From: Okeania sp. SIO2C9
GTDB lineage: Bacteria > Cyanobacteriota > Cyanobacteriia > Cyanobacteriales > Microcoleaceae
Length of the DNA: 59,823 nucleotides
Reading direction: 5' to 3'
Assembly: GCF_010672455.1 (NCBI RefSeq)
Contig: NZ_JAAHGO010000016.1
Span: 93,397 to 153,219 of the forward strand
Positions 7,345 through 17,042 of the stretch are shown here, in pieces. Within the stretch, counting starts at the first letter, position 1, and every line of letters starts with the position of its first letter. The notes beneath the pieces are model-generated. The model was not told where the DNA came from. It did no database searches and saw nothing but the letters and a program-made list of their open reading frames with translations. Position numbers and translations under genes: made by a program.

Positions 7345-8010
7345 ATGCTAAAAGCAATTTTGTTTGACCTCGATGGCACCCTAGCAAATACAGACCCTTT
7401 GCATTACGAAACCTGGAAAGAAATTTTAAATAATCACGGAGTAATAATTGACCATAATTCTTATAAACAATATATTAGTGGTAGAACTAATCCAGCAATT
7501 ATTCAAGATTTACTACCACAACTATCAACTACAGAAGCAGAAGAACTAGCAAATTATAAGGAGGAAAGATTTAGAGAAATTGCCTTAAATTTAAAACCAA
7601 TGACAGGATTATTAGAATTTATTGAATGGGTAGAAAACCAAAAACTTCAGAAAGCAGTTGTGACAAATGCACCTCCAGAAAATGCTGAATTTATGTTAGA
7701 TGTTTTGCAGCTAACAGATACTTTTCCATTAGTAATATTAGGTGGAGTAATGACTGTAGCAAAACCAGATCCTGCACCTTATAAATTATGTTTAGAAAAA
7801 TTGGAAATTTCCCCAGAAGAAGCAATTGTTTTTGAAGATTCTCGTTCGGGAATTAAGTCGGCGGTAGGAGCAGGAATTTATACAGTAGGAGTTGCTTCTA
7901 CCCATGAACCTGAATCTTTATTAGAGGTGGGAGCGAGTATTGTTATTAATGATTTTAGTGATGAAAAATTACATAAACTTTTAGATATTTGGAATATTTC
8001 TGGTATGTAG
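7345..8010 (+). CDS. HAD-superfamily phosphatase/phosphomutase (beta-PGM-like)
   Basis: 221 residues, typical for HAD subfamily IA. Motif I DLDGTL with nucleophile and acid/base Asp pair, helical cap (about 15-80), motif II Thr in VVTNAP, motif III Lys in KPDPAPYKLCL, motif IV VFEDSRSGI. The cap and the motif I context resemble beta-phosphoglucomutase and its phosphatase relatives, acting on a soluble phosphorylated sugar or similar metabolite. The substrate cannot be assigned. It stands alone after the 121-bp repeat array. Confidence 0.85.
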   Translation: MLKAILFDLDGTLANTDPLHYETWKEILNNHGVIIDHNSYKQYISGRTNPAIIQDLLPQLSTTEAEELANYKEERFREIALNLKPMTGLLEFIEWVENQKLQKAVVTNAPPENAEFMLDVLQLTDTFPLVILGGVMTVAKPDPAPYKLCLEKLEISPEEAIVFEDSRSGIKSAVGAGIYTVGVASTHEPESLLEVGASIVINDFSDEKLHKLLDIWNISGM

Positions 8011-8322
8011 AAATAAGTTTTTAACCTTGTAAATTGGTTTTAGCTTAATAGGGTTTCATATCAAATCCGGTAGCATTAGTATAATTCATAATTAGGGAAA
8101 AATAGTCAATATTGTAGAGGCAAACGGCTGTTTTCCCCTACTGACGGTAGAATTATATTACTCCAAAGCCAGCGGATTTTATCTCACATAAGTCAAAAGG
8201 AAGTTTAAAAAAACTAAAGTTATGATGGTAAATATAAATCCTTAGTTACATAAAAGCTAAAAATGTTTATTTCCAAGAAGTATTAGTTTATGAAAAGGAG
8301 ATAAAACAATGACTGGCGAACG
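8011..8322. repeat. Spacer with family RA element (8049-8187)
   Basis: An RA-type element reads ATATCAAATCCGGTAGCAT at the left and AGCCAGCGGATTTTATCTC at the right, about 139 bp. It is the same subfamily as 40858-41000 (shared TATTGTAG and AGAATTATA blocks). No gene seen. Confidence 0.65.
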
Positions 8323-8500
8323 TCATTTCAGTTATCAGTTATCAGTTATCAGTACCGACCACTAAAGCTGGAGGCTTGAAATACTGAACTGAATATTCTC
8401 TTGGTCGATTGGATATGGCGAGGGGACCTCGCCATCCCTCGACCGCTTTTTCATCCCCTTAAAAGGGGAGACTTTGGACTTCATTTTTTGGTAATATAAA
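8323..8500 (+). repeat. Family RK element, copy 1
   Basis: Starts with CATTTCAG plus GTTATCA heptamers, then GGCTTGAAATACTGAACT, TCTCTTGGTCGATTGGATAT and CATCCCCTTAAAAGGGGA. Related copies at 14782-14996 and (reverse) 56228-56424; partial ones at 43117 and 45343. The copy here follows the 3' end of the NACHT gene and the one at 14782 precedes the sigma-like gene. Confidence 0.7.
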
Positions 8501-8516
8501 AATTGGAAAAAGAGTA

Positions 8517-11500
8517 TTATTTTTGCTGATTATTGTATCGCCATGCCAAACGTTTCTGGAGTAATCTATGAATAAATCGATAACCTCCTCCAACTCGCTG
8601 AAGTAACATTTTTTCCGTGGCATAGTTGAGGAAGCGGGCGTAATTCCAGGGGGCTTTTTTTGTGAGGAAAAAGATAATGCGGAGGATTAAGTGTTGAATA
8701 ACAGACATCCCAAGTATTATGAACGCAAAAAATGGCAAAAATTTTGACAGAAACAATAATATACCGCTAATTAATTCAAAGTTATTTGATTTTGAAAATA
8801 GAACCATAATTACTGAAATAGGAAGTATTATTATTGTCAGAAATATAGCATTTAGTAAACTTCGCCAAATTCCTTCATTGGGATATGTTTTATGGTTGAA
8901 TTCTTGAGTTTCTAGACCTCCAAAGATTATCAGTATTACAGGACTCATGATAACCAGTATAATTGTTGGGAAAACCAAGAAGAAAATTGGCATTAAATTG
9001 AAAAATACAAAGAATATAAACAATCCTAAATTCATCTCATCAGGACCATCCTCAAAAAAAGCTAATAAAAATAACAATGAAAATAAAGAGGATAATATTT
9101 GATATCCCAAAAATATTTTATTCTGAAACGCCTTTTTTATCCCCATAAATAATTCTTTTCTATGTATTGTAAATATCTGTTTGATCCTGATTGGTATTAA
9201 CAAAATTGTTCTGCAAGCTTCTTGGTACTGTTTCCAAGAAAATTTCATTACTTCTGTTGTAGCAGGATTTTCGTAAAAACCATTGTTTTTGTCATCAGTA
9301 TTAATAGATAATGCTGCAATTACGTTTATAAACGTAACGTGTGTATTTTTAAAGATAAACCAGCTAAAACAGCCATAAACTAGAGCTAAAATCACCTTAT
9401 AAATTCTTTTATCCCTCTTACTATCCAACCAAATAGGTTCCAACCTCTCAATCAAAAACTCAGTCAATGAATGCTTCTCCAACCCAGACGCCAACCATCC
9501 CAACCACTCCAACGTCCTCCCATCACTAGGCATCCCCTTCTCCCCATAAAACCGACTATCAACCCTACGCTCCAACATCCGACACACATAAGCATCCAAC
9601 AAAAAATCCAACCGCTCATCCCTTCTCAACTCACCCCACCTCCTCAAAGAAACCTCCGCTACAACCACCATACTCAAAAACAACGGCACCCTCACAAACT
9701 CCAACAACTCCACATCACCCCTCACCCACTCCCATAACTCACCCTTACCAAACCCCAACAAATAACCCTCCACCTGAGAATCACTCAAAGGCAACAAACA
9801 AACCGCCCCATTCAAACACAACCCACCCCCAACAGACTCATACTCCTCCAACCGACTACAAACCACCAAAAACCCAGGACGACACTCCCCCAACAAAAAC
9901 CTATTTATCGCCTCCACACACAAACCCTGTCGAGACGACTCCAACTCATCCAAACCATCCAACATCGGTAACAACTGCTTACCCTCCACCAACCTTTTAC
10001 CAATATCCCGACTCACCCCATACTTCCAGCGCAACTCCTCCACCAACCATTCCTCAATAGACTGCTTCTCATCCCTCCAAGAAGACAAATTCAAAAACAC
10101 AGGTATCCCCAATTCCCCATCCATCTGAGCACGAATCACCAACTCCTGACCCAACTCCAACAACGTCGTTGTCTTCCCAGACCCAGGAGCACCCAATATT
10201 AACAACCGACCTCCAACCACAGAGTCATCAAACACATCAATAATATCCGCATCACCAGATAATTTCAGAGTCGGGCGATCGCCTATTTTCACACTCACAT
10301 CCCAAATACGTTTTACCTGTTGAGGTTGAAACTGTTTCGGAACATTAATTAACACTTCCATTTGATTATGCAAAGACTGACTCAAACGTGCCACTACTTC
10401 ATATTTAACCGCCTCCAATAAATTCTTCCGGTTACGCAACTGTTGACGAGTCAGTAAATTCTCCAAATTACAGTCAGCACCACCAACTCTACCCCCACTT
10501 CTACCCCGTAGTTGACTCCAAGTAGGAGGTGTAACTTTGCCATGATGAACTATTATTGGTAATTGAGTAATTCCTGGTAATTTTTGTTCAATTTCTGGAT
10601 GTAATTCTTGTAATTTTTGTCTAGCTTGTTCCATGGAAGTATAGACAGAATTATTATTAGTAAAAGAGGTGAGAAAGTATTTAAGAAATAGAGGAGCAAC
10701 CTGGTCTGGTGTAATTTCTCGCCAGATAATAATAGTAATGCCAATATCTGCTAATTGTTGAGCCAAACCCAAACCATCACAGGAATTAAAAATAGCCAAT
10801 TGTAAACCTTGTTGTTTAGCAGTAATCAGAGTATTTCTAATTTCTTGGAAGTCTAAATATTCTTGAGAATTTAGATGAATAATACCAGAGTGTTGTTGAT
10901 GAGTTTGACTGTGACCGGAAAAGATGATTATATCCCAAGGTTCATCCCATAGTTGTGCAAAATCTTGTCGTTTAAGTTCTTGATTTGATTGAGGTAAAAA
11001 TTTAGGTATAGCTCCTCTTCTTCTAAGTTTTTGAATTAAGTCTTTGTCTTGGGAAATGTTGATACCTGTATTGTCTCCGAGGATGCCTAATATTTTGACT
11101 TGCCTGGGTATTTCAGAGATAATATTTGGGGTATTTTTTCCTTCGGAAAAGCTGAGTATAGTTTCGATTATCGAATTTTCTGGTAGGGTTATTTTTCCCC
11201 AAGGTAGTTTATGTAATATTTCTGCTGTGTGGGTGTCTGAAATATTTTGAGTGTTGATAATGAGGATGATTTTTTCAGTATTGGGTAAGAGATTTTTAAT
11301 AGGGGAAAACCAAATGTTAATTTCTTGGCAGAGTCTTTGATAATAATGGAAACATTCGGAGCTAGAAATATTGGTAATTTGGTTTTTTTTAAATCCTGCT
11401 CTGGGGGTGGGGGTGAGAGAAATATATTGTTTTTGCCAGTTTTTATATAGGTTGGAAATTTTGGGTGCTGCTATTAAGGTTATAGGAATTTTTGGGGTGT

Positions 11501-11576
11501 TATTTGATTGGATAGTTAGATGAAAGCCTTCTTGAAAGTTGCCAGAGTTGAAGTAGATTGTGATTTGATTTTCCAT
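8517..11576 (-). CDS. CHAT-NACHT-transmembrane protein (NLR-like)
   Basis: 1019 residues, three parts. (1) Caspase-like CHAT peptidase domain, about 155-345: candidate catalytic His222 in IIIFSGHSQ and Cys266 in AIFNSCDGLGLA. (2) NACHT STAND NTPase, about 455-700: Walker A LGAPGSGKTT (461-470), Walker B LLPMLDGLDEL (535-545), then VCSR sensor. (3) About 715-985 contains several hydrophobic helices, then a conserved-looking tail YATEKMLLQRVGGGYRFIHRLL. NACHT proteins are oligomerising signal switches and several bacterial ones defend against phage; CHAT domains are proteases. I infer an NLR-like sensor-executioner at the membrane. Last gene of a minus-strand run after the sigma-like and DUF1822 genes. 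The NACHT-coding stretch 9430-10270 is strikingly G/T-rich on the coding strand, unlike its flanks. Confidence 0.9.
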   Translation of the reverse strand: MENQITIYFNSGNFQEGFHLTIQSNNTPKIPITLIAAPKISNLYKNWQKQYISLTPTPRAGFKKNQITNISSSECFHYYQRLCQEINIWFSPIKNLLPNTEKIILIINTQNISDTHTAEILHKLPWGKITLPENSIIETILSFSEGKNTPNIISEIPRQVKILGILGDNTGINISQDKDLIQKLRRRGAIPKFLPQSNQELKRQDFAQLWDEPWDIIIFSGHSQTHQQHSGIIHLNSQEYLDFQEIRNTLITAKQQGLQLAIFNSCDGLGLAQQLADIGITIIIWREITPDQVAPLFLKYFLTSFTNNNSVYTSMEQARQKLQELHPEIEQKLPGITQLPIIVHHGKVTPPTWSQLRGRSGGRVGGADCNLENLLTRQQLRNRKNLLEAVKYEVVARLSQSLHNQMEVLINVPKQFQPQQVKRIWDVSVKIGDRPTLKLSGDADIIDVFDDSVVGGRLLILGAPGSGKTTTLLELGQELVIRAQMDGELGIPVFLNLSSWRDEKQSIEEWLVEELRWKYGVSRDIGKRLVEGKQLLPMLDGLDELESSRQGLCVEAINRFLLGECRPGFLVVCSRLEEYESVGGGLCLNGAVCLLPLSDSQVEGYLLGFGKGELWEWVRGDVELLEFVRVPLFLSMVVVAEVSLRRWGELRRDERLDFLLDAYVCRMLERRVDSRFYGEKGMPSDGRTLEWLGWLASGLEKHSLTEFLIERLEPIWLDSKRDKRIYKVILALVYGCFSWFIFKNTHVTFINVIAALSINTDDKNNGFYENPATTEVMKFSWKQYQEACRTILLIPIRIKQIFTIHRKELFMGIKKAFQNKIFLGYQILSSLFSLLFLLAFFEDGPDEMNLGLFIFFVFFNLMPIFFLVFPTIILVIMSPVILIIFGGLETQEFNHKTYPNEGIWRSLLNAIFLTIIILPISVIMVLFSKSNNFELISGILLFLSKFLPFFAFIILGMSVIQHLILRIIFFLTKKAPWNYARFLNYATEKMLLQRVGGGYRFIHRLLQKRLAWRYNNQQK

Positions 11577-12553
11577 GATTTTTTTAAGAAATGAACTGCT
11601 TTGATATTGAAAGAAATTAGTAGGTTGGGTTGCGCTACCGCTTAACCCAACAAAACTTCTTGATTATTGTTAGGTTTATCCTCCGGATAAGCTCCGCTAA
11701 CCTGCCTCAACCTCAGCTACAAAGTCTGCTCCAAAACAAATGGATTTAATATTATTTGGTTTGAAAAAGGCAGAAGGCAGAAGGCAGGAGGCAGGAGGCA
11801 GAAGGGAAAATTGCTTACAAATTGCTTCCTCCTTCCTGAAGCTAAACTAGAAAATTTTCAACTATTTCTGCATCATCTAAAATGACTTTTACAGAAAAAC
11901 ATTTACCAGAAATTTCACTAAATTCTAACTGAATTAATTGGTCTGCTTCCCTAGTATCAATGTTGGGTTTATCCTCCGGATAAGCTCCGCTAACCTGCTT
12001 CAACCTCAGCTACAAAGTCTGCTCTAAAACAAGTGGATTTAATATTATTTGGTATCAATAGTAGAAGTAGATTATGATTTAGTTTTCCATGTTTTTTTTG
12101 GGAAATGAACTGCTTTGATATTGAAAGAAACTAGTAGGTTGGATTAAGGGGTAGCGCCACCCAAAAAAACTTCTTGATTATTGTTGGGTTTATCCTCTGG
12201 ATAAGCTCCGCTAACCTGCCTCAACCTCAGCTACAAAGTCTGCTCTAAAACAAGTGGATTTGATATTATTTGGTATCAATAGTAGAGGTAGATTGTGATT
12301 TGATTTTCCATGTTTTTTTTGGGAAATGAACTGCTTTGATATTGAAAGAAACTAGTAGGTTGGATTAAGGGGTAGCGCCACCCAAAAAAACTTCTTGATT
12401 ATTGTTGGGTTTATCCTCTGGATAAGCTCCGCTAACCTGCCTCAACCTCAGCTACAAAGTCTGCTCTAAAACAAGTGGATTTGATATTATTTGGTATCAA
12501 TGTTGGGTTTCCTGCGTCAACCCAACCTACAAATTGCTTCCTCCTTCCTGAAG
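11571..12553. repeat. Mosaic tandem duplications of the NACHT gene 5' region
   Basis: Module 1 (TTTTCCATG, through GAAATGAACTGCTTTGATAT, to TTCTTGATTATT) contains the native NACHT start at 11571-11671 and recurs at 12085-12184 and 12305-12405. Module 2 (GGGTTTATCC to TTATTTGGT, about 95 bp) occurs at about 11672, 11963, 12184 and 12405. The last two composite units are a 221-bp tandem repeat. A GCAGAAG heptamer run lies at 11768-11802. Each module 1 repeats the first codons and ATG of the NACHT gene, so start and leader sequences are triplicated. Confidence 0.8.
11847..11954 (-). pseudogene. Duplicated 3' fragment of the DUF1822 gene
   Basis: About 35 codons ending in TAG match the last codons of the gene at 12554: ADQLIQLEFSEISGKCF and VKVILDDAEIVENFL, differing by several substitutions (Pro to Ser, Gly to Ala). 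Divergence indicates an old duplication whose upstream part was deleted and replaced by the module 2 repeat. Confidence 0.8.
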
Positions 12554-13477
12554 CTAAACTAGAAAATTTTCAACTATTTCCCCATCATCTAAAATGACTT
12601 TTACAGAAAAACATTTACCAGGAATTTCACTAAACTCTAACTGAATTAATTGGTCTGCCACCCTAGATTCTACTTCCTCAATATCTGATTCTAATTCAAT
12701 TTTTAATCTTAAACCAGGAGGCAAATATTCTTGTTCATCAATAGGATAAACTTGCACTAATACCCCTACTTCCGCATCTAATTCCGGCTGAATAGTAACA
12801 ACTAAAGCGACTTTTTGCCGATTTAAAAGTAAACCAAAATCTATAATTTTTGCTCTTTTAACCGTATCAACAGAACTACTTTTAGCAAAACCTAACTTTG
12901 GGGTTAAAACTGCTTCAGGAGATAACCAAATTGCCTCAAAAATTCCAGCAAACCAATTACCTAAATTAACCAAAGGATTCTGGGGTAAAACTTCCTGTTT
13001 ATTTTTCTCCAGAAACTTAAATAAATTATCCAGAGGTTGTAATTCTGCCAGAGATATTTTTTCCGGTAAATCATTCTTAACTGCTGGATAAAATCCTAAA
13101 ATTTCCACCTTATCTAAACTTTGCTGAAATTGCACCGCCACATAACCAATAAAATTTTCAGCTATATCTAAACTGGCATAAAAATCTGTTTCTCCAGGCA
13201 AAATAGGCATACAAAATAACTGCCGATTTTCTACTATCAAATCAGTAGCATTGAATAACCCACTCAGAAGCGGATTAAAACTATTAGTCTGTTCTAAATT
13301 AGTCTCAAATTCTAACCACTTCAGTAAATGAGAAACAGCAGAAACAGCCAAAATATTTAAGTAAACTTGTTTAGCTATTTCTGGATGAGATTGTTGGGCA
13401 GCTAACGCCGATGCTTTTTGATGTATTTTAATATCCAAAGGTACAATAACCGGACGTAATTGAGTGTAATTATTCAT
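12554..13477 (-). CDS. DUF1822 family protein
   Basis: 307 residues from ATG at 13477 (MNNYTQLRPVIVPLDIKIHQKASALAAQQ region). A longer frame opens at 13555 but crosses an AATTTAG heptamer run, so I prefer 13477. Family hallmarks: N-terminal PLDIKIHQKASALAAQ, short helical stretch, EFETNLEQTNSFNPLLSGLFN, then beta-rich half with FYASLDIAENFIGYVAVQF and GVLVQVYPIDEQEYLPPGLRLKI. DUF1822 is a cyanobacterial family of unknown function. From memory it is often next to sigma-like and CHAT genes, as here. It sits between the sigma-like gene and the CHAT-NACHT gene, all on the minus strand, so it may be an adaptor or regulator of that module. No catalytic residues evident. Confidence 0.8.
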   Translation of the reverse strand: MNNYTQLRPVIVPLDIKIHQKASALAAQQSHPEIAKQVYLNILAVSAVSHLLKWLEFETNLEQTNSFNPLLSGLFNATDLIVENRQLFCMPILPGETDFYASLDIAENFIGYVAVQFQQSLDKVEILGFYPAVKNDLPEKISLAELQPLDNLFKFLEKNKQEVLPQNPLVNLGNWFAGIFEAIWLSPEAVLTPKLGFAKSSSVDTVKRAKIIDFGLLLNRQKVALVVTIQPELDAEVGVLVQVYPIDEQEYLPPGLRLKIELESDIEEVESRVADQLIQLEFSEIPGKCFSVKVILDDGEIVENFLV

Positions 13478-13486
13478 GTTCAAGAA

Positions 13487-13864
13487 TTTAGAATTTAGAA
13501 TGTATAATTTAGAATTAATAATTACCTCTTCTTTAAAATAAGAGGATTGGATCAAAGGATTTTTTTCTCCATGATTTTTCAGTAAATTTATCCTAAAAAA
13601 TGTTTACTAGACCTGTTGTCAAGAAAGGCAGAGAGCATAAGGCAGAAGGGAATATTGGTTCAAAGGGAACTTGTTTATACCATTTCTCCATAAAGTTGCA
13701 TTTAATATCAAGACGAGAATAGTCAGTGCAATAAGGTCTGAGCAACAATTATTAAGCGCAGTTTTAGAAAAAATTGGTATTAGCAATTCCTGGATTAAAT
13801 TGTTGGAAAACTATAGTAAATTTATCCTAAAAATGTTGACTATACCTGTTGCTAAAGTAAAAAA
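13487..13864. repeat. Spacer with direct repeat, no gene
   Basis: TAAATTTATCCTAAAAA plus TGTTKACTA-ACCTGTTG occurs at 13578-13618 and again at 13819-13856, about 240 bp apart. AATTTAG heptamers lie at 13487-13520 and TTGCCTG heptamers at 13904-13930, inside the 3' end of the sigma-like gene. No supported gene. Confidence 0.55.
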
Positions 13865-14767
13865 TTAAAACAAATTATCCATTTTCTCATGCTTCTCTTT
13901 TCTGTTGCCTGTTGCCTGTTGCCTGTTGCCTATTTCTGCAATAAATCTACTGTAATAATCCAAATTATTCTCAATATCCATAACAATTTCCCGTAACAAA
14001 GGCAAACATTTACGTTGCCAATGAGCCTTCAAAGTTTGATAATTAATTCCCTGTTCTTTAGCAAAACTTTGCCATGTTTTTTTCGGTTCCGCAGCAACTA
14101 AAGTTATCCGCTTACTACTTTTTTTAATAGTTAAACCTTTGCGACCTCTAACAATAACCCAATCTTCCTTAACTGTGATTTTTTCCGCGCGATCGCTCAA
14201 ATAAAAATATTGCACAATAGCTTGAGCATTACAGTTAGGATAATTTTGTGGATGACAACTACTTAACTTCCCCTCTGGATCTGTTTCGATATACAATTCC
14301 AAAATTAAACCCTTGTTTTGAGTAGTTTGACTTTCTTCCTGCTGCATCAAACTATCCAAAGAGTCTAAAGTCAGATAAGTAAAACCATCATCAGATAAAT
14401 TTTCAATCCATTCTCCCTCATCCTTATCTGGTTGCGTGACATTCAGACTCAGTTCCTGACCATGGCGACAGTATAAGTCAAGAATGTCATATTTGAGAAA
14501 CCCATTCACCCACCTAACATAATGCTCCCGCAACATCGAAGCAGAAACTTGGTCAATATCTGAGCGATCGAGAAACTGTGCCAAATTTTGTCTGACATCA
14601 AATAAAGTATTATTGAGCGCCTCCAAATAATTTGGGTGAGCATCTCTGCGAATACCAGGGAACCGAGGAGTTAGACTTAATAAACTGCCCACTGTTTGCT
14701 GATATTTCAGACTTCCGGTCGGATAGTTACAGATTTTTTGTAAGAGTTGTTTAAGTTGTTCGTCCAT
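13865..14767 (-). CDS. Sigma-70-like (ECF-like) transcription regulator
   Basis: 300 residues from ATG at 14767 (MDEQLKQLLQKICNYP); an in-frame ATG at 14782 borders an RK element and is less likely. N-terminal half resembles cyanobacterial sigma-like proteins: HPNYLEALNNTLFDVRQNL and YVRWVNGFLKYDILDLY. C-terminal half has the family-typical DPEGKLSSCHPQNYPNCNAQAIVQ segment and a helix-turn-helix at TWQSFAKEQGINYQTLKAHWQRKC. Expected to direct RNA polymerase or act as a degenerate sigma. It precedes the DUF1822 and CHAT-NACHT genes in the same direction and probably controls them. The last ~25 codons (GNRQQATGNR) are TTGCCTG heptamers read as protein, a repeat extension of the coding region. 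Confidence 0.7.
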   Translation of the reverse strand: MDEQLKQLLQKICNYPTGSLKYQQTVGSLLSLTPRFPGIRRDAHPNYLEALNNTLFDVRQNLAQFLDRSDIDQVSASMLREHYVRWVNGFLKYDILDLYCRHGQELSLNVTQPDKDEGEWIENLSDDGFTYLTLDSLDSLMQQEESQTTQNKGLILELYIETDPEGKLSSCHPQNYPNCNAQAIVQYFYLSDRAEKITVKEDWVIVRGRKGLTIKKSSKRITLVAAEPKKTWQSFAKEQGINYQTLKAHWQRKCLPLLREIVMDIENNLDYYSRFIAEIGNRQQATGNRKEKHEKMDNLF

Positions 14768-14781
14768 TACTCTAGACGCCA

Positions 14782-14996
14782 TTTCAGTTATCAGTTATCA
14801 GTTATCAGTTATCAGTACCTCTGCGCAGCATTCCGCAGGAAAGTCAGAGGCTTGAAATACTGAACTTTATTTTCTCTTGGTCGATTGGATATGGTTAGGA
14901 AACCCATCCATCCCACCCTTCGGGAAGCTGCGCTAACGACCCCTTTTTCATCCCCTTGAGGAGGCTTAAGACCTTATTTTTTGGTTAAAGATAAAA
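14782..14996 (+). repeat. Family RK element, copy 2
   Basis: GTTATCA heptamers (14787-14813), GGCTTGAAATACTGAACT, TTCTCTTGGTCGATTGGATA, CATCCCCTTGAGGAGG. An embedded GCGCAGCATTCCGCAGGAAA module lies at 14824-14843. It supplies the upstream region of the sigma-like gene. A TTTTGAC heptamer run follows at 15057-15090. Confidence 0.7.
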
Positions 14997-15138
14997 AAGC
15001 CTCTGAATATACAGTCGAAAGCTTGTCAAAAAATTATGCCAAAAATAACTTCTAACTTTTGACTTTTGACTTTTGACTTTTGACTTTTGACTTCATTAAC
15101 TAGCGTTCCTGAAATGTAATGGTAAGTAGCTGAAGGTA

Positions 15139-15261
15139 AAGCAATGTGCCCTGGCTTATGTACAAATTACAGGAGGTGTCCAATAGCTAAAACTTTACAT
15201 TATAAGCTTTTTATCCCCCCTGTTGCCTGTTGCCTGTTGCCTGTTGCCTGCGCACGGCGCT
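15139..15261 (+). repeat. Family RG element, copy 1
   Basis: Left AAAGCAATGTGCCCTGG, internal TACAAATTACAGGAGGTGTC and CAATAGCTAAAA, TTGCCTG heptamers at 15225-15250, right end CGCACGGCGCTATA. Other copies at 24480, 28147 (reverse) and 48474. The following 15322-15430 holds four GGGGAGGGCGAATACCATT units, each about 35 bp. Confidence 0.7.
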
Positions 15262-15509
15262 ATAAAATTGAAAAACTTATGTTTTGCGTTGATACTTAAT
15301 CTACAGGACTTACCCAGAGACTCTACTTATGGGGAGGGCGAATACCATTCGCCCCTACAGATGGGGAGGGCGAATACCATTCGCCCCTACAGATGGGGAG
15401 GGTGAATGCCATTTGCCCCTACAGATGGGGTCTAATTTGATATTTTACGTAAGTCCAGATCTAAAAATTATTACCATTCAACAACGCCAATTATCCAAAT
15501 TGTCCAAAA

Positions 15510-17042
15510 ATGAACTTAATCAGCAAACTATTTTCCAAAATTAACATCCCTAAAAATATCCGCTTTCGACCCAAAAACCTCCTCTGGGTTTCCCTAATAA
15601 TATTTGGACTAACCCTCACTCAAATCTACACCTATCTACCAACCGCCACTGCTCAACAACCCTCCTCCTTTTCCCCCAGAGAATTTCGAGGAGTATGGGT
15701 AGCATCCGTTGCCAATATTGACTGGCCATCCCAACGAGGTCTATCTGTTGCGCAACAAAAATCAGAATTACTCAACATCCTCAACCGGATGCAAGAACTT
15801 AACCTCAATGCTTTAGTCTTGCAAGTTCGACCCAATGGAGACGCTTTGTATGATTCTCCCATCGAACCCTGGAGTGGTTGGTTATCAGGCAAACAGGGAA
15901 CCCCACCACAACCATATTACGACCCACTAGAATTTGCGATCGCCGAAAGTCATAAACGCAATATCGAACTCCATGCTTGGTTTAACCCATACCGCGCTCA
16001 ACTTAGTCCCAATGATGGTTCCTTTGCTGGAAATCACATGGCGGTCAAATATCCCCAATATGCTTATAGATACGGCAACAACATTTGGATGGACCCAGGG
16101 GCGAAAGTTATTCAAGACCAAACTTTCAACACTATTATGGATGTAGTCCGTCGTTATGACGTTGATGCCATTCACTTTGACGACTATTTCTACCCCTACC
16201 CTAAACGGGGACAAGAGTTCCCCGACTACCAAACCTATAACGCATACAAAGCATCTGGCGGTACCCTCTCTTTATCTAACTGGCGACGACAGAATGTGAA
16301 TAATATGGTGCAACGTCTTTACCAAGGTATTCACGCTGAGAAACCTTATGTAAAATTTGGCATTAGTCCATTTGGCATTTATCGCCCAGGGAACCCTCCT
16401 GGTATTGTCGGGTTAGATCAATATGAAAGTTTATATGCTGACGTAAAATTATGGATGGAGCAGGGTTGGGTAGATTATTTAGCACCGCAACTTTATTGGC
16501 GAATCGACCCCCCTCAACAAAGTTATCCAGTTTTGTTAAATTGGTGGTTACAACAAAACCCACAACGTCGTCATATTTATGCGGGAAACTATTTAAGTCA
16601 GTTGCAAGGTGCGGGTTGGTCAGTATCTGAGTTTGAGAGACAAGTTGCTATTTCTCGTCAGAGAGCAAGTCAACTTTCTTTAGGAAATATCTTTTTTAGT
16701 ATGAAGATGTTTCGAGATAATTTTGCAGGTGTGAATAATGTGTTCAAAAGTTCAGTTTATCCGACTCCAGCATTACCTCCAGCGATGCCGTGGTTAGATA
16801 ACCAACCTCCCGCACCACCTACAGGAATACAAGTTAATTCTGATGTTATTAGTTGGAGTGCTGATAATACTGGAGATGTTCGCTCTTGGGCGTTGTATCA
16901 GCAAAATGGTAATCAATGGTCACTTGTACAAGTATTAAATTCTGCTACTAATGCGGTGAGAGTTACCCCAGGAACTTATGCTTTACGAGCAGTCGATCGC
17001 TTGGCAAATGAAAGTGTAGAAGAAGTGGTAACGGTGCAGTAA
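15510..17042 (+). CDS. Secreted glycoside hydrolase-like protein (GHL10/DUF187)
   Basis: 510 residues. N-terminal signal/anchor: basic start (KLFSKINIPKNIRFRPKN), hydrophobic LLWVSLIIFGLTLTQIYTYL, then TATAQQ as probable cleavage region. The catalytic-like TIM-barrel of the GHL10 family (PF02638) follows: EFRGVWVASVANIDWPS, LNALVLQVRPNGDALYDS, IELHAWFNPYRAQ, DAIHFDDYFYPYP, FGISPFGIYRPGNPPG, DYLAPQLYWRID, IYAGNYLSQ. A C-terminal ~75-residue beta domain looks fibronectin-like. Predicted to act on cell-wall or sheath polysaccharide in the periplasm or outside. The start ATG follows an A-rich stretch without a clear Shine-Dalgarno. Confidence 0.9.
   Translation: MNLISKLFSKINIPKNIRFRPKNLLWVSLIIFGLTLTQIYTYLPTATAQQPSSFSPREFRGVWVASVANIDWPSQRGLSVAQQKSELLNILNRMQELNLNALVLQVRPNGDALYDSPIEPWSGWLSGKQGTPPQPYYDPLEFAIAESHKRNIELHAWFNPYRAQLSPNDGSFAGNHMAVKYPQYAYRYGNNIWMDPGAKVIQDQTFNTIMDVVRRYDVDAIHFDDYFYPYPKRGQEFPDYQTYNAYKASGGTLSLSNWRRQNVNNMVQRLYQGIHAEKPYVKFGISPFGIYRPGNPPGIVGLDQYESLYADVKLWMEQGWVDYLAPQLYWRIDPPQQSYPVLLNWWLQQNPQRRHIYAGNYLSQLQGAGWSVSEFERQVAISRQRASQLSLGNIFFSMKMFRDNFAGVNNVFKSSVYPTPALPPAMPWLDNQPPAPPTGIQVNSDVISWSADNTGDVRSWALYQQNGNQWSLVQVLNSATNAVRVTPGTYALRAVDRLANESVEEVVTVQ

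Follow-up and report, generated by a model that had tools for sequence, protein, structure and literature searches.

Three consecutive genes on the minus strand of a 59,823-nucleotide stretch of the cyanobacterium Okeania sp. SIO2C9 (hereafter the window; contig NZ_JAAHGO010000016.1, part of a genome of 10.9 Mb in 317 contigs) form a real and widespread module. They encode a sigma-like protein, a DUF1822 protein and a 1019-residue protein in which a CHAT protease is joined to a NACHT NTPase and a membrane region. Across related genomes the sigma-like and DUF1822 genes are a near-invariant pair and the CHAT gene is a variable third part. The mechanism considered here, given about an even chance of being correct, is a signal-gated sigma switch, in which the sigma protein would be held by DUF1822 until cleavage by the activated CHAT protease sets it free. 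Neither the gene set nor the notion that the C-termini vary, with STAND and multi-transmembrane forms among them, is new: Kaur, Iyer, Burroughs and Aravind described, beside genes for extracytoplasmic function (ECF) sigma factors and DUF1822, EACC2-caspase proteins whose C-termini differ and comprise CHASE2, STAND NTPase, multi-transmembrane regions and others (Kaur et al., eLife 2021; PMC8195603). The window locus is a new member of this set, with the same three gene families in the same neighborhood, the His-Cys dyad of CHAT, a variable C-terminus and the adjacent ECF sigma and DUF1822 genes all present; the similar cyanobacterial neighborhoods mentioned in an earlier reading of the window, made from the sequence alone, are real and on record (PMC8195603). 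The present analysis adds co-occurrence statistics, the near-invariance of the sigma-DUF1822 pair, a new view of the DUF1822 fold and a more precise mechanism that can be tested.

A near-invariant pair and a variable third gene

Of 100 genomes sampled from the order, 92 have DUF1822 and 93 have EACC2-CHAT, often in several copies. Gene neighborhoods were compared between 19 control stretches and 60 loci, each from a different one of the 92 positive genomes and taken at the first-listed place (except in G002, where a lower-listed match further from the contig end was used); high-scoring DUF1822 genes are favored among these loci, because they were picked from the best-scoring matches listed. 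The sigma-like proteins are of two types, A (approximately 200-320 residues, as in the window) and B (approximately 380-630 residues), with a few truncated forms. At 58 of the 60 loci the gene immediately before DUF1822 on the same strand is sigma-like, with a gap of at most 124 bp in 55 of the 58 and an overlap in 8 (negative gaps, measured on longest frames). An EACC2-CHAT gene lies directly downstream at 34 loci and anywhere in the stretch at 38, following 18 of 20 type A pairs directly and 15 of 38 of type B. Among the control stretches, a sigma match was present in 1/19, DUF1822 in 0/19 and CHAT in 1/19. Forty further loci, selected for short DUF1822 frames and partly from genomes already sampled, had the sigma gene upstream in 35 cases and CHAT directly downstream in 29.

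Ten genomes chosen for their few contigs, overlapping with the 60-locus sample, were searched separately with each profile. Before counting, 13 of 50 CHAT rows (E > 1e-30) and the weak sigma rows (4 of 27 type A, 24 of 44 type B) were dropped, and 45 DUF1822 rows were merged to 43. A sigma gene was found within 1.5 kb upstream of 35 of the 43 DUF1822 genes (0.03 expected) and a CHAT gene within 3 kb downstream of 28 (0.05 expected), or within 1.5 kb for 24. In the reverse direction, DUF1822 lies within 3 kb of 37 of 41 sigma genes and 26 of 37 EACC2-CHAT genes. The sigma-to-DUF1822 figure leans high, because the sigma profiles were built from genes adjoining DUF1822 (that of type B was seeded with the upstream neighbors of 14 DUF1822 genes, 11 of them within the 60 loci), while the DUF1822 (Pfam) and CHAT (seven proteins of the window's genome) figures are independent of neighbor-built profiles. 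Co-occurrence of the three families in cyanobacterial genomes, the check proposed for the idea of a module in which a membrane-anchored CHAT switch has its own regulator, is thus far above chance in both directions.

The three proteins also co-diverge. Their distance matrices are correlated, with none of 500 permutations reaching the observed value except for type B DUF1822 and CHAT (8/500). These statistics include species relatedness, as do the partial Spearman coefficients: sigma with DUF1822 given CHAT, 0.49 in type A (43 trios) and 0.56 in type B (15 trios); DUF1822 with CHAT given sigma, 0.24 and 0.09; and sigma with CHAT given DUF1822, 0.21 and 0.41. The strongest co-divergence, that of sigma and DUF1822, would be expected of a sigma/anti-sigma pair, but also of other stable partners.

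These counts bear on the published reading of the same neighborhoods, an auto-processing conflict system in which the variable domain senses, the caspase or CHAT domain cleaves itself, the ECF sigma factor is the transcriptional output and DUF1822 serves as an adaptor (Kaur et al., 2021; PMC8195603). Here this reading is considered rather unlikely. It accounts for the varied partner domains of CHAT, but the sigma gene has a firmer link with DUF1822 than with CHAT, and sigma-DUF1822 pairs without an adjacent CHAT gene are common, so that a sigma partner fits better than a CHAT adaptor. The near-invariant pairing in turn suggests the anti-sigma role for DUF1822 that the sigma-switch mechanism assumes.

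At five loci (L080, L081, L083, L088 and L094) small proteins with three or four hydrophobic segments take the place of CHAT behind type B sigma-DUF1822 pairs; these proteins are perhaps another way of controlling the pair.

The three proteins

The sigma-like gene spans 13865..14767 on the minus strand, with an alternative ATG at 14782, five codons upstream of 14767. Its product, taken for a sigma-like regulator in the sequence-only reading, is supported as such by fold and profile: it models as a divergent ECF-like protein of type A, with both a sigma2 region (approximately residues 1-106), which resembles those of sigmaE and SigW, and a sigma4 helix-turn-helix (approximately residues 232-267). 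It matches no Pfam family at E 1 and does not reach the curated Pfam sigma cut-off. Foldseek against the PDB returned no match at E < 0.001 for either the sigma or the DUF1822 model (the top row for the sigma model was a kinetochore protein, with sigma chains a minority of the best 50 rows listed), and both fold assignments rest instead on the VIA second look and a viral structure library. Between sigma2 and sigma4 the AlphaFold2 (AF2) model has a low-confidence beta-hairpin insert (residues 198-224; 14096..14176, minus strand), present in the window and in its Okeania ortholog (locus L076, from Okeania sp. SIO3B5) and absent from the other rows among the 27 of 54 alignment rows inspected. Common descent of types A and B within the sigma superfamily is plausible, although their hhalign match spans only 30 columns at probability 10. 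In the plasmid records L197, L198 and L199 the gene directly upstream of DUF1822 is annotated as a hypothetical protein.

The DUF1822 gene (Pfam E 1.2e-54), the proposed anti-sigma partner and CHAT substrate, occupies 12554..13477 on the minus strand and encodes 307 residues from its likely start. The listed open reading frame, 12554-13555, opens at a TTG at 13555; the ATG at 13477, matching the ortholog in L076, is probably the true start. The AF2 model (pLDDT 87) is mostly beta and has no membrane helix. Type A DUF1822 models as a putative restriction-endonuclease-like domain (residues 37-162; 12992..13369, minus strand) followed by an immunoglobulin/fibronectin type III-like beta sandwich (residues 204-307; 12557..12868, minus strand). 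Kaur et al. label DUF1822 a tetratricopeptide repeat (TPR) protein and propose caspase auto-activation (PMC8195603), but the TPR label is not borne out by this type A model (type A being the only type modeled), a further point against an adaptor role. No TPR family is among the 19 Pfam families matched by 57 type A members, and one plasmid match to DUF1822 (H6) overlaps a feature annotated as a tetratricopeptide repeat protein.

Nucleases of the PD-(D/E)XK kind carry the catalytic residues D-(D/E)-x-K at typical spacing. These are neither kept in the window DUF1822 nor conserved in 41 aligned type B proteins. The active-site-like trio D79-E88-R90, found in 53 of 57 type A proteins, reads D-F-M in the window (F88, M90); all 41 type B proteins have gaps at positions 88 and 90, and 29 have alanine at position 79. 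DUF1822 as an active nuclease effector is disfavored because the residues are missing in the window copy and unconserved in type B. Lengths of type A DUF1822 proteins with and without an adjacent CHAT gene show no clear difference (medians 324, n = 46, and 314.5, n = 10), and in type B the difference (464.5, n = 16, against 388, n = 25) is probably confounded by subtype. Relatives of DUF1822 also occur on 20 plasmid records (Nostoc, Tolypothrix, Anabaena and others), seven of them typed as conjugative.

The third gene (8517..11576, minus strand; 1019 residues) was located from the list of open reading frames and characterized with Pfam, alignments and motifs. Its product had been described as a CHAT domain with His222 and Cys266, a NACHT NTPase with intact Walker motifs and a multi-helix membrane region, and Pfam, motif and hydropathy evidence confirms each part. 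The constant N-terminal half (residues 1-350; 10527..11576, minus strand) comprises an EACC2-like region and the CHAT protease (Pfam E 1.3e-5, residues 194-325), with intact dyad motifs GHS at 221-223 (His222) and NSCDG from 264 (Cys266). The NACHT domain (residues 458-606, Pfam E 1.6e-6; 9759..10205, minus strand) has an intact Walker A motif, GAPGSGKT from 462, and a Walker-B-like motif, LLPMLDGLDE from 535. Hydrophobic segments cluster at residues 820-972 (8661..9119, minus strand; hydropathy and alignment), with a weaker one at 621-644. Gly221, His222, Asn264 and Cys266 are invariant in all of 48 aligned CHAT proteins (a subset of 67 adjacent to DUF1822, with close copies and truncated proteins excluded by hand), and His222 and Cys266 also in an alignment of seven CHAT proteins of the same genome. 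The seven share the N-terminal region, with W47, W89 and W126 invariant, which may correspond to EACC2.

The remainder of the protein varies. Among the 48 CHAT proteins, 29 carry CHASE2, 8 Peripla_BP_6, 4 pentapeptide and 3 NACHT domains. EACC2-CHAT relatives within the genome, in which domain order was inspected, are joined to periplasmic-binding, nSTAND1 and pentapeptide domains, the pentapeptides preceding CHAT in one (L043). The NACHT-membrane half in turn has four relatives in the genome, one preceded by AAA_35 (C157), one with another CHAT domain (C251), one with an N-terminus to which no domain was assigned (C246) and one that is short (C302). The CHAT protein thus reads as a shuffled sensor-protease with interchangeable sensor domains. 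Fusions of CHAT with NACHT occur in at least 10 of 61 genomes (G000, G138, G149, G103, G152, G106, G112, G125, G123 and G115). Sigma and DUF1822 genes lie upstream on the same strand in 6 of 8 fusion stretches (L205, L207, L208, L210, L211 and L212), either directly upstream or within a CHAT array, with the CHAT frame broken in L210 and L212. Of the other two, L206 holds only a DUF1822 piece at the end of the stretch and L209 is too short to judge; with the window and L076 counted, the figure is 8 of 10. No natural fusion of sigma, DUF1822 and CHAT was seen among the open reading frames of the loci examined. In L207 (G112) and L208 (G125) arrays of several EACC2-CHAT genes stand behind one sigma-DUF1822 pair, an arrangement which suggests that several sensors may feed one sigma factor. 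A fourth gene after CHAT, DUF928, is present in L097, L104 and L119 (Pfam E 2.4e-63 to 2.4e-58), with an N-terminus that by eye resembles a signal peptide; it is also annotated behind a CHASE2 gene in NZ_CP151101.1 (L197), and there is none behind CHAT in the window.

The domains of this protein had led the sequence-only reading to propose defense or programmed death, for which PADLOC, the neighboring genes and the domains of sister proteins provide no specific support. On such a reading NACHT would respond to some product of the phage, and the cell would be killed by the protease once active, by release of the membrane helices or by DUF1822 acting like a nuclease. NACHT and caspase-like domains are found in immune and cell-death systems (PMC8195603), antiphage proteins of the bNACHT/NLR-like kind likewise join an effector-like domain to a NACHT domain whose Walker motifs are intact, DUF1822 models with a nuclease-like fold, and its relatives occur on plasmids. 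Against these points, the three proteins gave only weak P-loop matches with PADLOC (mad8, E 3.4e-4) and NCBIfam (EruA, E 0.16), so that no curated antiphage model is matched, and the sigma/DUF1822 cluster and the membrane helices also set the locus apart from bNACHT. The defense-island reading was rejected on these scores and on those of 10 other window open reading frames, among which PADLOC returned a single SduA match (E 1.3e-4) over the receiver domain of a response-regulator/histidine-kinase protein, the other scanned frames being ordinary metabolic, transport or signaling genes. The loss of the active-site-like residues of DUF1822 in the window, their lack of conservation in type B, the CHASE2 or binding-protein-like domains of most sister CHAT proteins and the number of EACC2-CHAT matches per genome, which reaches 21, point the same way, and a defense or suicide role is judged improbable.

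Layout and maintenance of the window locus

All three open reading frames are confirmed in the open reading frame list on the minus strand and in the order described in the sequence-only reading. The statement that they follow each other holds for order and strand, but the gaps are unusually large, 387 bp between sigma and DUF1822 and 977 bp between DUF1822 and CHAT when measured from the likely starts, and the second contains duplication scars. The corresponding gaps in L076 are 209 bp and approximately 220 bp (151 bp to the longest frame). The scars lie at 11546..12551 (minus strand), where a copy of the 3' end of DUF1822 (11816-11954, 96% identity), tandem units of approximately 221 bp and two copies of the start of the CHAT gene (12060-12145 and 12281-12366, 90% and 92%) are found, one of the latter reading MENQITIYLYY and then a stop; the spacer in L076 is much shorter.

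L076 holds a full-length ortholog trio in the same gene order, with protein identities to the window of 92% (sigma), 91% (DUF1822) and 81% (CHAT), the membrane region being, by eye, the most divergent part of the CHAT protein. A contig scan with the whole CHAT protein returned two loci, L076 and L077, the latter a C-terminal part at a contig end. The ratio of nonsynonymous to synonymous substitution (dN/dS, NG86) between window and L076 is approximately 0.27 for sigma, 0.22 for DUF1822 and 0.35 for CHAT, and with values of 0.22-0.35 all three genes look maintained under purifying selection.

Signs of decay are present elsewhere. A paralogous pair in the same genome (L016; G000:C223:251000-270999, at 9554-11390) has a sigma gene 49% identical to that of the window with two in-frame stops, a DUF1822 with an altered C-terminus and no CHAT match within its 20-kb stretch, and looks like a decaying module. 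A copy in G149, 74% identical, has three stops. Together with the scars between the window genes, these copies could be taken to mean that the window locus is itself a remnant kept by chance, but its open frames, intact motifs and low dN/dS make a neutral or decaying assembly highly improbable.

Upstream of the sigma gene, a 56-bp block (14984..15039, minus strand) is 96% identical by blastn to the sequence directly upstream of the L076 sigma gene and is a candidate promoter region; in the window it is parted from the gene by approximately 205 bp of extra sequence. Among 47 regions upstream of type A sigma genes, near-copies removed, no convincing shared promoter motif emerged. The motif GCATAATT occurs in 6 of 37 regions upstream of type B sigma genes and 2 of 600 control regions, counts uncorrected for multiple tests or locus kinship, and as a promoter motif is a lead only. 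It also lies within the conserved block of the window and L076. No terminator was found within the module on the minus strand (8000-15600), and a scan of the same interval for promoter-like sites was uninformative (32, versus 23.4, sd 4.7, in shuffled sequence).

A proposed sigma switch and similar systems

In the proposed mechanism, the co-encoded DUF1822 would serve as a cytoplasmic anti-sigma factor that binds the ECF-like sigma protein and holds it at rest. The CHAT protein would combine a latent protease with an exchangeable sensor. In the window copy a signal would probably drive NTP-dependent assembly at the membrane, since the sensor half here consists of a NACHT NTPase and membrane helices, and assembly would activate the His222/Cys266 protease. 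The protease would then cleave either DUF1822, perhaps at the variable linker that joins the two domains, or the CHAT protein itself, and the freed sigma protein would redirect RNA polymerase, presumably to a regulon of its own. Of this scheme the data bear out the three genes with their intact motifs and joint inheritance, the sigma fold, the near-constant pairing of sigma with DUF1822 and the exchange of domains on CHAT, while the binding of DUF1822 to sigma, its cleavage, sensing through NACHT and membrane and the regulon are inferred. DUF1822 as the substrate of the CHAT protease fits the data and is the favored reading by analogy with known systems. A wider proposal is held more tentatively, at somewhat less than even confidence. 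In it, the DUF1822 proteins of cyanobacteria would constitute a new family of cytoplasmic anti-sigma factors that combine a degenerated nuclease fold with an immunoglobulin-like domain, and they would be cut by CHAT proteases, whose sensors (CHASE2, periplasmic-binding or NACHT-membrane) can be exchanged, to release the paired ECF-like sigma factors. No earlier proposal of an anti-sigma or CHAT-substrate role for DUF1822, and no experimental paper on the function of DUF1822 or EACC2-CHAT, was found in the open-licence literature, which is not proof of novelty.

In the RseA/sigmaE and RsiW/SigW systems the anti-sigma gene stands beside the sigma gene. Those systems have a sigma factor with a dedicated holding partner, as is proposed here, and RseA is described as holding its sigma factor until proteolysis (PMC10028731). 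The type A DUF1822 model differs in having neither a membrane helix nor a recognizable anti-sigma domain, and the protease of the module is encoded within the same cluster.

A functional parallel would be Craspase, in which the CHAT protease Csx29 cuts Csx30, a protein that binds and inhibits the ECF sigma factor CASP-sigma (PMC10028731). A protease-inhibitor-sigma logic is possible both in that system (Cas7-11, the TPR-CHAT protein Csx29, Csx30 and CASP-sigma) and in the module. However, Craspase has Cas7-11, which does not adjoin the CHAT gene of the window (its neighbors, DUF1822 and a HAD hydrolase, were considered, without a genome-wide search), and the trigger of Craspase is a guide RNA where here it would be the NACHT/membrane half. 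The window DUF1822 shows no detectable similarity to Csx30: a search against PDB sequences at E 1 gave no match, Csx30 included, although a missing row is not evidence of absence, and Csx30 is not among the Foldseek rows for the DUF1822 model, which proves nothing on relatedness. The module would thus resemble Craspase in the way it works and not by descent, and is not a member of the Craspase family.

If the wider proposal is true, Craspase would be only the RNA-guided branch of a general CHAT/anti-sigma/sigma architecture that is present, often in multiple copies, in most of the sampled genomes of the order. A defined circuit of sensor, protease, anti-sigma and sigma factor would make this gene family a signaling system, and would tie the caspase-like proteins of cyanobacteria, usually discussed as factors of death or defense, to regulated transcription.

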